The notes beneath the pieces were generated by a model, which saw nothing but the letters and a program-made list of their open reading frames with translations, was not told the origin of the DNA and ran no database searches. Made by a program: the position numbers and the translations under genes. From Ruminococcus sp. (GTDB taxonomy: Bacteria; Bacillota; Clostridia; Oscillospirales; Ruminococcaceae): DNA of 64,000 nt. The stretch's first letter is position 1, and each line of letters starts with the position of its first letter. This document shows positions 10,303-50,329 of this stretch, piece by piece. Where the stretch lies: assembly GCA_015066935.1 (NCBI GenBank), contig SVNK01000002.1, positions 1 through 64,000 on the forward strand, written 5' to 3'.

Positions 10303-10925
10303 GATAAAGATATTGCTTGTTGACGACGAAACACTGCTTCTTGAGAGTCTTGAAATAATCCTGACGCTCAATGATATGGAGGTAATCGGGACGGCTCATG
10401 ACGGAAATGAAGCGCTTTCAATTCTTCAGAAGCAGGAATGTTCGCTTGCACTTGTAGACCTCAATATGAAGGGGATGGGCGGAATTGAGCTTATAGGCAG
10501 ACTCAGAAAGGAACATCCCGATATAAGGATTCTGGTGCTTACAACTTTCTATGATGACAGGAATATTACTGCAGCAATTTCCGGAGGTGCGGACGGCTAT
10601 CTCCTCAAGGACAGCGGTAAGGACGCAATACTCGGAGCTATTGAGCAGTGAGCAGATTATGGGCGGACGTAATGTCATTGACGGCAGAGTAATGAATCGT
10701 CTTGCCGCAATAATGAGTTCAACTGCGAAGAAGGAAACCCTTCCCGACAGTATTACAGAGCGTGAAAAGGAAGTGTGCACGCTTCTTGCACAGGGACTTA
10801 CAAACAGACAGATTGCCGATAAGCTCTACATATCAGAGGGGACTGTGAAGAATTACATTTCGTCCATTTATGATAAAACGGGAATCCACGACAGGGCGAA
10901 GCTCATTGTGGCAATAAAAGGGTAA
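10295..10925 (+). pseudogene. Response regulator, NarL/LuxR family, disrupted by a 7-bp tandem duplication
   Basis: The receiver domain is complete (MDKIKILLVDDE, phospho-Asp55 in LALVDLN, Lys105 in YLLKDSG), then the frame stops at 10651 after GAIEQ. The missing linker and LuxR-type DNA-binding domain (ITEREKEVCTLLAQGLTNRQ, GTVKNYISSIY) continue in another frame to 10925. The break lies at TGAGCAG repeated perfectly at 10642-10648 and 10649-10655. Removing one unit restores GAIEQIMGGRN, the expected sequence. As written only a lone receiver is made. It could be a true mutation, a reversible switch, or an assembly error. Confidence 0.9.
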
Positions 10926-10938
10926 TATTGCTTATATG

Positions 10939-10980
10939 ACCGCAGTCATACTTAAAAAAGTGACTGCGGTTACTTTTATT
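10939..10980 (+). terminator. Terminator of the two-component operon
   Basis: Stem ACCGCAGTCA (10939-10948) / TGACTGCGGT (10961-10970) followed by TTACTTTTATT. Confidence 0.75.
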
Positions 10981-11002
10981 CTGATGGAAAAGATTGTATA
11001 AT

Positions 11003-11248
11003 TAATGTGTCCTCAATAACCGCCGTCAGGCGGTTATTGCCCCGAACTTTGTTCGGGGAGCGCAAATTCTTTATAATATAAGGAATTTGCGCATCACATT
11101 CATTGATGTCAAGCTCATTTTGCCCTATAGGGCAAAACAAAGTGCAAGAAAAATTATCAATTCCTTTATTTTTTCTTGCACTTTGTCAACTTAAAATTGG
11201 CTTTAAAAAGCTATATTAAGCCGATTTTAAGTTGATGAGCAGACATTG
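11003..11248 (-). repeat. Six-hairpin intergenic element, copy 1
   Basis: This 246-bp element is in inverse orientation to copies 2 and 3. It has the same six hairpins, here in order H6 to H1: CAATAACCGCC.., CCCCGAAC..GTTCGGGG, GCGCAAATTC.., the palindrome TTTTGCCCTATAGGGCAAAA, a 16-bp AT-rich stem CAAAGTGCAAG.., and CAACTTAAAAT... Ends are TAATGTGTCCTCA and the inverse of AATGTCTGCTCA. It ends 35 bp before the ABC permease start and fills the whole gap between the two-component operon and the ABC operon. Confidence 0.85.
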
Positions 11249-11283
11249 ATTAATTCAGCAAATCATATTACGGAGGAGATACA

Positions 11284-12456
11284 ATGGAACAGAAAACCAA
11301 AGAGCAGAAGCTCTCGCCCATGAGATATATACGTAATAATAAACGCAGGGTATCGGTGCTTATTGTAAGTCTTTGTTTGTGTCTTACGATTATATACGTT
11401 GCGAATTTCCTTATAATGTCCACAGATGCAACGGCGAGAAAGCTGTTTATCGGTCCTATGGAGCGAATGTGTGCTATAGGACTCTCATATGAAAATCTGG
11501 GTATAACTGATGAGGATTTAAATGAAGAGAATCTTCCCAAACTCAAAGAGAAAATGAATCAGAAACACATAGAATATGCAAAGAAGCTTGATAGTGCAGA
11601 GAATGTTGTAAAAGCCATTCCTTATGCTCCAGCCAACGTCAATATAAAGCCGCCGATTGCAATGCTTGGTTATAATATTCCGCTGATTGAACCTGAATAC
11701 GCTGATGCTCTGCTTGAACACATGGGCGCAAAGCTTATTGAGGGACGTCTGCCCGAAAAACCAAATGAAATTGTACTCGACAAGGCATCCATGCTTAATA
11801 ACGGATTTGTGGTCGGAGGGAAGAAGGGCGAAAAATATACCATAACAGGTATACTGGACTGCGATTTGTATTTCGGATACGGTATCAGAAGTGAACAGCG
11901 TTATGTGGGGCTGTATATTCTGACCGATAAGCGTGTTGATGATGCAGAAAAGTATTTTGAAGTATTGGGACTTAAATTTGAAAAAGACTATGATTATGTC
12001 GAAGACTACAGTTTCTGGATGGATGAATATGATAAATACATAAAATCGCAGCTGGTAGATGCTACAAAGTACATTTATACGGGAATTTTCGTTATTCTGT
12101 TTATTTCGCTGTTTGTGGTATATACGACGTATCTGCGTGACCGCCACAACGAATGGTGTCTGTACTGTTCAATCGGATATTCAAGAAAGTCGATATACTT
12201 TTCGATAATGGGAGAGCTGTTGTTCACCTTTATCACTGCAATAGTAATCGGACTTATAATTACCGGAGCGATGGTATTCTCGCTTGATATGATAATGATG
12301 AAGCCGAAGGGAATTTCGTGCCAGTATTTCTATCCCGACAAGATTGCAGAGATACTTTGTGCATTTGTGCTGTTCTTCGGAATGCTCCAGATACCGATCA
12401 GGTATGCGCTTTACAAGATACGCACAATAGACGCTATGGAAGACGATATGTACTGA
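11284..12456 (+). CDS. ABC transporter permease, FtsX/MacB type
   Basis: The 390-residue protein has one membrane helix near residues 20-42 (VLIVSLCLCLTIIYVANFLI), a large outside region of about 210 residues, then three C-terminal helices with the FtsX-type motif YTTYLRDRHNEWCLYCSIGYSR. This is the MacB-like topology of transporters for peptides, lipoproteins or antimicrobials. Start at 11284 is set by CGGAGGAG. It leads a three-gene operon (permease, ATPase, second permease). No promoter is obvious in the 35 bp between the hairpin element and the start. Confidence 0.85.
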   Translation: MEQKTKEQKLSPMRYIRNNKRRVSVLIVSLCLCLTIIYVANFLIMSTDATARKLFIGPMERMCAIGLSYENLGITDEDLNEENLPKLKEKMNQKHIEYAKKLDSAENVVKAIPYAPANVNIKPPIAMLGYNIPLIEPEYADALLEHMGAKLIEGRLPEKPNEIVLDKASMLNNGFVVGGKKGEKYTITGILDCDLYFGYGIRSEQRYVGLYILTDKRVDDAEKYFEVLGLKFEKDYDYVEDYSFWMDEYDKYIKSQLVDATKYIYTGIFVILFISLFVVYTTYLRDRHNEWCLYCSIGYSRKSIYFSIMGELLFTFITAIVIGLIITGAMVFSLDMIMMKPKGISCQYFYPDKIAEILCAFVLFFGMLQIPIRYALYKIRTIDAMEDDMY

Positions 12457-19664: not shown

Positions 19665-19673
19665 TTTAATTTA

Positions 19674-19712
19674 AAACTGCTCAATAACAATCAAGTTACT
19701 GAGCAGTTTAAT
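19674..19712 (+). terminator. Terminator of the symporter gene
   Basis: AAACTGCTCA (19674-19683) / TGAGCAGTTT (19700-19709), then TTTAATTAAT. It abuts hairpin element copy 2. Confidence 0.75.
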
Positions 19713-19958
19713 TAATGTCTGCTCATCAACTTAAAATTGGCTTAAAATAGCTTTTTAAAGCCAATTTTAAGTTGACAAAGTGCAAGAAAAAATAAAGGAA
19801 TTGATAATTTTTCTTGCACTTTGTTTTGCCCTATAGGGCAAAATGAGCTTGACATCAATGAATGTGATGCGCAAATTCCTTATATTATAAAGAATTTGCG
19901 CTCCCCGAACAAAGTTCGGGGCAATAACCGCCTGACGGCGGTTATTGAGGATACATTA
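19713..19958 (+). repeat. Six-hairpin intergenic element, copy 2
   Basis: The copy is 246 bp with ends TAATGTCTGCTCA and, inverted, TAATGTATCCTCA. Hairpins in order: H1 19727-19774 (perfect 17-bp stem), H2 19776-19823 (CAAAGTGCAAGAAAAA and its complement), H3 19824-19843 (TTTTGCCCTATAGGGCAAAA, a perfect 20-bp palindrome), H4 19869-19901 (GCGCAAATTC/GAATTTGCGC), H5 19903-19921 (CCCCGAAC/GTTCGGGG), H6 19922-19947 (CAATAACCGCC/GGCGGTTATTG). It ends 22 bp before the VanZ-like gene. Confidence 0.88.
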
Positions 19959-19980
19959 ATTACTTTACGGAGGTTAATTA

Positions 19981-35435: not shown

Positions 35436-35622
35436 TAAAAGAATATCTGCCTTGTTCGAGTAAATGTAGTTTTTATAATCCAACACATCTTTAAAGGGAA
35501 TTCAGCTCCGTGTGTGGATTGCAGACCTCCCGTTTTCACGGAAGAAGGGAGCGTGAAGCATTCGGGCGTTTACCCACCTGCTTAGTGCGGGTTTTATTCG
35601 CTATATGACGGCAAGGCGGATA
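35436..35622 (+). ncRNA. ssrS: 6S RNA
   Basis: The non-coding stretch has the clostridial 6S RNA layout: a closing stem TGCCTTG (from about 35448) with CAAGGCG (to about 35619), the 5' bubble strand ATCCAACACAT...AAAGGGAATTC, an apical CTCCC/GGGAG hairpin, and the 3' bubble strand TTTACCCACCTGC followed by GCGGGTTTTATT. It binds sigma-A RNA polymerase and acts as a promoter mimic in stationary phase. A sigma-A promoter lies just upstream and a terminator just downstream. Exact ends are estimates. Confidence 0.82.
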
Positions 35623-35646
35623 CTTTTATATCAGCTTTTAAACCAA

Positions 35647-49054: not shown

Positions 49055-50014
49055 TTACCTCTGCTGAGAAGCAATTCCCGGAATCGGAGTCTGTTTTAAA
49101 ATATCGGCAATGACTTCTGAAGCTGATAATTCAGACAGTTTTGCCTTTGAATTGAGGATAATACGATGTTCAAAGACGTCGGAGCATATATAGGCAACGT
49201 CGTCGGGGATGACGTAATCACGTCCCATAGCGGCAGCAATGCCCTTGGAAAGCTGCATAAGTGCAAGCGTACCTCTTGGACTGATTCCGAGTTTTATCAT
49301 AGGATGATTTCTTGTTGCGTTTGAAAGAGAAACGATATATTCATAGATTTTGTCGTCAACGTAGATTTCTGAGATGTACTCCTGAATAGAAAGAAGGATT
49401 GACGGTGTTACGACGGGATTAATGCTATCGAGAGGATTTGAGTTGAATTTTGATTTGAGGATAGAGACTTCCTCGTTGAAATCGGGGTAACCCATACTGA
49501 GTTTTATCATAAAACGGTCGAGCTGTGAATCGGGGAGATTGTGAGTACCGGCCGAACCGATAGGATTCTGCGTTGCGATAACGGTATACGGTTCAGGGAG
49601 CTTATATGTTTTACCGTCAACAGTGATATTTTTTTCTTCCATAAGCTCAAGGAGTGCGGACTGGGTCTTGCTTGAGGTACGGTTGATTTCGTCTGCAAGG
49701 AAGAGGTTGCAGAAAGCTGCTCCGGGACGGAATTCAAATTTCCCCGCAGCCTTGTTGTATATGGTGAATCCTGTAACGTCGGATGGGAGCACATCGGGAG
49801 TGAACTGTATACGGTTATGCTCAAGCGAGAGAGCTTTTGAAAATGCAATGGCAAGGGTAGTCTTACCAACGCCGGGGATGTCCTCGATAAGTATATGACC
49901 CTTGCAGAGAATAGCAAGGAGCGTTTTAAGGATAATCCTGTCTTTTCCGATTACAGCCTTTTTAACCTCGTTGACGATTGAATTAATATATTGAGTATAA
50001 TTTTTGTTGTTCAT
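49055..50014 (-). CDS. MoxR-family AAA+ ATPase
   Basis: The 319-residue ATPase has Walker A IPGVGKTT, Walker B LFLADEINRTSSKTQSALLELMEE, sensor 1 TQNPIGSAGTHNLPDSQLDRFM and sensor 2 SPRGTLAL. MoxR proteins act as chaperones for von Willebrand-domain partners such as DUF58. Start at 50014 (MNNKNYTQ) follows AGGAGA; the gene opens 34 bp from hairpin element copy 3. First gene of the MoxR-DUF58-TgpA-DUF308 run. Confidence 0.95.
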   Translation of the reverse strand: MNNKNYTQYINSIVNEVKKAVIGKDRIILKTLLAILCKGHILIEDIPGVGKTTLAIAFSKALSLEHNRIQFTPDVLPSDVTGFTIYNKAAGKFEFRPGAAFCNLFLADEINRTSSKTQSALLELMEEKNITVDGKTYKLPEPYTVIATQNPIGSAGTHNLPDSQLDRFMIKLSMGYPDFNEEVSILKSKFNSNPLDSINPVVTPSILLSIQEYISEIYVDDKIYEYIVSLSNATRNHPMIKLGISPRGTLALMQLSKGIAAAMGRDYVIPDDVAYICSDVFEHRIILNSKAKLSELSASEVIADILKQTPIPGIASQQR

Positions 50015-50048
50015 TATATTTCTCCTGTTCAAATAATATACCTTTTAT

Positions 50049-50294
50049 TAATGTCTGCTCAATAACTTGAAATTGGCTTAATATAGCATTTAAAAGCCAA
50101 TTTTAAGTTGGCAAAGTGAAAGGAAAAATAATGGAATTGATAATTTTTCCTTCACTTTGTTTTGCCCTATAGGGCAAAATGAGCTTGACATCAATGAATG
50201 TGATGCGCAAATTCCTCATGTTATAAAGAATTTGCGCTCCCCGAACGAAGTTCGGGGCAATAACCGCCTTAAGGCGGTTATTGAGGACACATTT
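50049..50294 (+). repeat. Six-hairpin intergenic element, copy 3
   Basis: The 246-bp copy has the same six hairpins and ends (TAATGTCTGCTCA; inverse AATGTGTCCTCA). It is more diverged, yet H2 keeps its stem through a paired change (C-G in copies 1-2 is A-T here: GTGAAAGG against CCTTCAC). H1 tolerates a G-T wobble, and H5 and H6 differ only in their loops. It lies between uppP and the MoxR operon, 34 bp from the moxR start. Confidence 0.87.
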
Positions 50295-50329
50295 ATTATA
50301 TCATCAAATGATATGTTTTGCAATAGTAA

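Follow-up and report, generated by a model that had tools for sequence, protein, structure and literature searches.

A probable MITE-like element family of Ruminococcus directed to -10 boxes and built of two three-hairpin units

The first 64,000 nucleotides of contig SVNK01000002.1 from a Ruminococcus sp. genome (GenBank assembly GCA_015066935.1; hereafter the window) carry a strongly folded intergenic element at 11003-11248, 19713-19958 and 50049-50294, here called copies 1, 2 and 3. These loci raise the question of why six hairpins are kept in such an element and what it does beside the genes where it lies. The original prediction, made from the letters of the window, had described a three-copy element of constant 246-bp length with imperfect inverted ends, maintained for its structure in RNA or single-stranded DNA and not just the decayed remains of a miniature inverted-repeat transposable element (MITE). 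The three copies are indeed present; they agree in length and in the order of their six hairpins, and differ in their loops. Our analyses show a MITE-like family that is unusual both in where it inserts and in how it is built; it is probably a family of non-autonomous DNA transposons of Ruminococcus that targets -10 boxes and keeps its hairpins for the sake of the DNA. The promoter targeting, a feature absent from the earlier reading, is considered below together with the anatomy of the element, the traces of its movement and the level at which its stems are constrained.

All descriptions follow the orientation of copy 1, in which the element runs from its B end, ATGTGTCCTCA, to its A end, TGAGCAGACAT. 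The core of the full form measures 242 bp (ATGT...ACAT), with small length variation among copies, and lies between 6-bp direct repeats. Its terminal inverted repeats, ATGTGTCCTCA / ATGTCTGCTCA, are imperfect, as had been predicted. The body consists of two units joined by 6 bp, each unit being a terminal inverted-repeat stem that encloses three hairpins, so that the six hairpins formerly seen as a single series are grouped three by three within stems of their own. This architecture emerged, without any structure being supplied, when 28 of 46 near-full copies were aligned, close copies having been dropped (7 of the 28 belong to this genome and 21 to others). The minimum-energy DNA fold of copy 1 returned both units as well, with six unpaired bases separating them. 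The RNA fold of copy 2 gave z values of -16.0 and -17.5 for the two strands (0 of 200 shuffles each), and the DNA fold of copy 1 gave -15.5 and -14.1. Constant length holds for the full form but not for the family, which also includes forms with a single hairpin (about 40-44 bp) and other shortened ones; unit B was found alone at locus L036 with TAATAA duplicated on both sides. The tandem copies at L005 and L193 have one TAATTA in common, which suggests that insertion of one unit into another's duplication gave rise to the two-unit element. In other species, four loci (L190, L104, L153 and L157) have only a short B-end stretch left at the promoter, with the gene start soon after, and are apparently the remains of deletions that spared the promoter.

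A search of the whole 2.1-Mb genome with copy 2 retrieved 24 near-full and about 17 partial copies, and the element is thus far from a three-copy one. The terminal motif, allowing at most one mismatch, occurred 36 times in forward and 36 times in reverse orientation, while the reversed-pattern control gave one match in each. Within the window, copies 2 and 3 share one orientation and copy 1 is inverted relative to both; identity to copy 2 is 98% for copy 1 and 92% for copy 3.

The flanks of these copies differ sharply between the two ends. At the B end a TATAAT box adjoins the element in 94 of 136 distinct insertions, a -35 box matching at 5-6 of 6 positions is found in 37 (2.5 expected from shuffled flanks), the spacing is 17 bp in 35 of these 37, and 40 of the 136 have a TG ahead of the -10 box (TGnTATAAT). 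At the A end, 71 insertions yielded one TATAAT and one good -35 box (1.4 expected). Both counts pool all loci from several gathering routes, with near-identical flanks merged. Sixteen loci (L102-L117) had been fetched with a TATAAT-bearing pattern and some others with a TAATNA-bearing one; without the sixteen, 134 B-end insertions retain 92 TATAAT boxes and 35 good -35 boxes (2.4 expected). Likewise, 74 insertions from named genomes, for which the search pattern lay within the element and stopped short of the flank, gave 48 TATAAT boxes and 16 good -35 boxes (1.35 expected). When 71 sites, a partial set, were aligned by their TATAAT box, the -35 columns gave T79 T73 G69 A62 C42 A52 per cent. 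Compared with other TATAATNA sites of this genome, a control that includes sites inside genes, good -35 boxes were commoner at TATAAT-sited copies, both in a partial set from the same genome (12 of 27 vs 14 of 95, p 0.002) and in the pooled set (35 of 94, p 0.0005). About two thirds of the insertions have duplicated, as their target, the 3' part of a TATAAT box (TA/TAATNA), and the B end adjoins it; both the -35 and the -10 box therefore stay intact. On these flanks the element appears to enter sigma-A-type promoters in one orientation, and it should become the 5' leader of the transcript.

A simpler account would make insertion specific merely for TAATTA, with later selection leaving copies behind -10 boxes because insertions into genes are harmful and intergenic TATAAT sequences are mostly promoters. 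The B-end 6-mer fits it, being TAATTA in 88 and TAATAA in 24 of the 136 insertions whether a promoter is present or not, and so do the 42 insertions that lack TATAAT. However, selection of this kind would not clear neutral intergenic sites, the excess of good -35 boxes over the control sites is not what it predicts, and a palindromic TAATTA should be found at promoters in both orientations, contrary to the single TATAAT among the A ends. We regard this account as rather unlikely, and retain insertion directed to the -10 box.

The family bears the traces of movement, its many copies having flanks unrelated to one another. Flanking 6-mers are identical in 55 of 78 distinct insertions, the latter being a filtered count, and positions 3-6 agree in 61 of the 78 vs 29.9 in shuffles (0 of 10000). 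The B-side 6-mer is other than TAATTA in 29 insertions, 18 of which have identical flanks, including the rare pairs TAATTC, TAAATA, TATATA and TAAGTA; some of the non-identical pairs are off by one base or by a one-base shift. The rare pairs bear on another way of moving, by a tyrosine recombinase acting on a pair of 11-bp inverted arms that flank a 6-bp overlap (TGAGCAGACAT-TAATTA-ATGTGTCCTCA). The tandem copies at L005 and L193 do present this 11-6-11 geometry, but rare 6-mers on both sides of one copy fit a target duplication, as overlaps carried from a donor would tend to differ, and recombination of this type seems improbable.

Empty sites were found in relatives at three genes. At the FtsX-like gene behind copy 1, the identical TATAAT leads straight into a short leader in two other genomes (G041 and G011), and a third (G042) has the TATAAT with a different and longer leader. 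For moxR, the gene behind copy 3, a TTGNNN-type -35 box and a TATAAT were present without the element in all 29 upstream loci examined, out of 104 other genomes with a match. The chorismate synthase gene aroC of this genome (L013, L290) has a full element behind TTGACA-N18-TATAAT. Elsewhere, 29 aroC loci were examined out of 47 other genomes with a match, and 21 of them fit TTGNNN-N16-18-TATAAT: one (G023, L305) carries a B-only unit directly after the -10 box, and the other 20, including those of the nearest relatives by protein identity (G011 and G041), have no element. The remaining eight mostly show a near-variant -10 box, and one is cut short. We read aroC as two separate insertions at one promoter; an old insertion lost in the other genomes is also possible. 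The empty sites confirm insertion and show that the -10 boxes at the three genes were there beforehand. The family is short and present in many copies, with terminal inverted repeats, target duplications and empty sites as in a MITE, and for this reason the proposed contrast between a structured element and a MITE does not hold. Judged from sequence comparison, the family is mobile and promoter-directed.

The stems were then considered by the changes that they have accepted. The replacement of a C-G by an A-T pair in hairpin H2 of copy 3, cited in the original prediction, was confirmed, and four pairs further along that stem another pair has also changed on both sides, from A-T to G-C. Two-sided changes occur in 25 of 83 pairs, where shuffles gave 6.8 +/- 1.7 and slid controls no more than 9, with the structure derived from the same alignment and the cells counting sequences, not events. 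In 72 distinct full copies, divergence from the consensus is 0.04 in stem columns and 0.20 in unpaired columns, about fivefold. Pairing is therefore kept beyond what decay would leave, as had been proposed.

Selection at the RNA level is expected to favour G-U on the transcribed strand. Among 52 full copies, G-T and A-C departures are equal (45 vs 44 cells, 26 vs 28 types, not counting one pair that is most often G-T). Non-Watson-Crick cells make up 4.0% in 42 promoter-sited full copies and 2.3% in 30 others (p 0.017), a comparison that mixes copies from different genomes. Since the two departures are equally frequent and promoter-sited stems are no better paired, the constraint looks like one on DNA and not on an RNA function; the RNA part of the earlier proposal is unsupported, and its alternative of single-stranded DNA is possible.

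These results bear directly on the view that the element is a cis-regulatory, riboswitch-like leader kept for RNA structure and function. Its position between promoter and gene, its strong fold and its covarying pairs would suit such a leader, but the genes concerned are functionally unrelated. Of 37 copies in this genome, 21 are followed within 250 bp downstream by a same-strand gene start and 13 have a gene diverging from the B side, the distances being approximate as some element ends were estimated. The downstream genes with an annotated function (10 of 18 listed) are mixed, encoding IspD, chorismate synthase, Tex, UDPGP, an ABC protein, a radical SAM protein, a PALP enzyme, a beta-CASP protein, an EF-Tu-like GTPase and a lamin-tail protein, to which the window adds the FtsX-like and MoxR-like genes. 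No association with one gene class is conserved, as orthologues were seen in relatives without the element, except for the B-only unit at aroC of G023. Moreover, no Rfam covariance model reached its gathering score over the elements in the window and in four loci with copies. Because of the G-U/A-C symmetry, the quality of the stems and the mixture of genes, an RNA function was set aside as very improbable. A terminator was also considered for copy 1, and a scan of 10900-11350 listed two sites, both within the following gene.

The covariation could alternatively arise without any selection on the hairpins, if one arm corrected the other through template switching at replication. Double changes standing alongside symmetric G-T and A-C single changes agree with this process, as does the fact that non-promoter copies pair at least as well as promoter-sited ones. 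Correction alone, however, does not predict that stem columns diverge fivefold less than unpaired ones, so that as a full explanation it is possible but not probable. We infer that the hairpins matter on the DNA, most likely for moving, with arm-to-arm correction contributing; selection may act on single-stranded or cruciform DNA.

With the hairpins assigned to the DNA and the target to the -10 box, the following course of events can be proposed. A putative transposase supplied in trans would cut at open or easily melted -10 boxes, and the inequality of the two inverted repeats would fix the orientation. Transcription would then start at the B end and carry the six hairpins into the 5' leader of the mRNA. 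The hairpins would be kept because they are important to the DNA while it moves, in line with the strand-symmetric constraint, and a tightly folded leader may do little harm, which would be another reason for their persistence. A bolder version, which we put forward only tentatively, is that the transposition system recognises the working sigma-A RNA polymerase and inserts the element, in a single orientation, at the upstream border of the melted -10 region; the promoter would survive, the element would be a transcribed, hyper-folded 5' leader, and its hairpins would be selected on DNA as substrates of an undescribed transposase.

Several observations weigh against the main reading, that of a mobile, promoter-directed MITE-like family. 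The 42 insertions without TATAAT at the B end include copy 2, whose B end points toward a VanZ-like gene start and has only a weak GTGACA-N17-AGTAAT match. The promoter of copy 1 is itself weak, its -35 box matching 3 of 6 positions, and a consensus promoter scan of 10900-11350 listed none (shuffles 1.8). Selection after insertion could add to the promoter bias. In 9 of 74 rows of a flank table that includes chance A-end matches (e.g. L015 64, L036 295 and L184), the second base of the A-side duplication is G, and the true duplication could therefore be 4 bp. As for the mobilising enzyme, the terminal-motif search of this genome retrieved no autonomous parent. Paired inverted ends 0.6-6 kb apart with matching duplications were absent from the loci collected at that stage, mostly of about 3 kb, from which a long parent could escape. 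Among transposase families, PF01609 matched in 0 of 4 genomes, and PF00665 and PF00872 (searched in 4 and 6 genomes) gave no match in this genome, many other families lying outside the search. A search for PF06782 in 10 genomes had no match even in the control genomes and is hence uninformative; PF00872 and PF06782 are taken by us to cover the Mutator-like transposases of the TnGBS / ISLre2 / ISKra4 group.

The features of the three window copies are collected in Table 1. Adjoining copy 2 is a palindrome (CTGCTCAATAAC...GTTACTGAGCAG) at 19673-19708, whose ends resemble the A end of the element; it is possibly a single-hairpin remnant or the terminator of the preceding gene. Elsewhere in the window, a 6S RNA gene lies at 35441-35626 on the + strand (Rfam RF00013, 69.1 bits).

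Table 1. Positions of the three element copies and associated features in the 64,000-nucleotide window
Feature	Position	Strand	Remark
Copy 1, element core	11005..11246	+	B end at 11005, A end at 11246; promoter reads into copy 1 in this orientation
Copy 1, target duplication, B end	10999..11004	+	TAATTA
Copy 1, target duplication, A end	11247..11252	+	TGATTA (one base off)
Copy 1, -10 box ahead of FtsX-like gene	10997..11002	+	TATAAT; same position in species without the element
Copy 1, unit B	11005..11099	+	ATGTGTCCTCA...GCATCACAT; hairpins H6, H5, H4
Copy 1, unit A	11106..11246	+	ATGTCAAGCTCA...TGAGCAGACAT; hairpins H3, H2, H1
FtsX-like permease domain gene behind copy 1	11284..12456	+	predicted 5' leader would include the element
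Copy 2, element core	19715..19956	-	
Copy 2, target duplication, A end	19709..19714	-	TAATTA
Copy 2, target duplication, B end	19957..19962	-	TAATTA
Copy 3, element core	50051..50292	-	
Copy 3, target duplication, A end	50045..50050	-	TAATAA (- strand)
Copy 3, target duplication, B end	50293..50298	-	TAATAA (- strand)
moxR promoter at copy 3	50295..50323	-	TTGCAA-N17-TATAAT
MoxR-like AAA ATPase gene behind copy 3	49055..50032	-	

Beyond this genome, the terminal motif occurred in 43 of 125 genomes of the genus, against 4 of 125, with one match each, for the reversed control; a few among the 43 resemble chance matches inside genes (e.g. L155 and L165). A search with the full element was positive in 25 of 60 genomes. 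A stricter motif was present in 4 of 297 sampled genomes of the family, namely this genome, the remnant L104 within the genus, a true element of another genus at TTGACA-N17-TATAAT (L102) and an apparent chance match inside a gene (L103). One pattern in named genomes retrieved 77 stretches, every record being titled Ruminococcus or Ruminiclostridium, and the named carriers include R. flavefaciens XPD3002, YRD2003 and SAb67. The B-end motif was also seen in two metagenome-assembled genomes titled Ruminiclostridium (L246 and L266), the former with a 51-bp form between two TAAATA, and on one viral contig (L278, IMGVR_UViG_3300010282_000241). Phage and plasmid collections, which may lack records from this genome and those closest to it, gave no match.

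The family was finally compared with known systems, each described here as far as the available part of the cited source goes. The Correia repeat enclosed elements (CREE) of Neisseria are likewise short and non-autonomous, with inverted ends, a target duplication and a possible position between promoter and gene; in their case the 'Snyder promoter' is formed by a native -35 box and a -10 box at the far end of the element (PMC2649163). In our family, by contrast, the -10 box is already present in the target before insertion and part of it is duplicated; the orientation is fixed, some two thirds of the copies lie at a TATAAT box and the body is made of two three-hairpin units. Neither the Correia terminal repeat nor a Neisseria host (PMC2649163) was found, as the ends differ and the 77 stretches all carry the two titles given above. 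The fixed orientation and unequal ends resemble those described for the promoter-targeting Mutator-like transposases of TnGBS, ISLre2 and ISKra4 (p-MULT 3 and 4), for which insertion is directed to sigma-A promoters and orientation is ascribed to unequal inverted repeats (PMC3942029). Those elements insert upstream of the -35 box at a fixed 13-17 bp, 15-17 bp for TnGBS (PMC3942029), whereas here insertion occurs in the -10 box, downstream of the -35. The BOX repeats of Streptococcus pneumoniae are also modular, folded, small and intergenic and can be co-transcribed, but are over-represented between convergent genes (PMC3049150), unlike the promoter-enriched family described here. The REP/BIME palindromes with their RAYT transposases resemble it as abundant palindromic intergenic repeats (PMC3733652, PMC2817692), and it differs from them by its inverted ends and target duplications. 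Among the papers listed in searches of the open-access literature, which excludes subscription papers and preprints, none names the present element or describes a MITE that aims at -10 boxes.

Promoter-directed transposition in bacteria has thus already been described, in the available part of the source, for elements landing upstream of the -35 box (PMC3942029). If the present reading is true, a family of fixed orientation that duplicates part of the -10 box and keeps the promoter would represent a different way to land in dense genomes without killing the host. The insertions would also amount to natural leader-swap experiments, in which many genes share one structured leader in one species and have none in its relatives.
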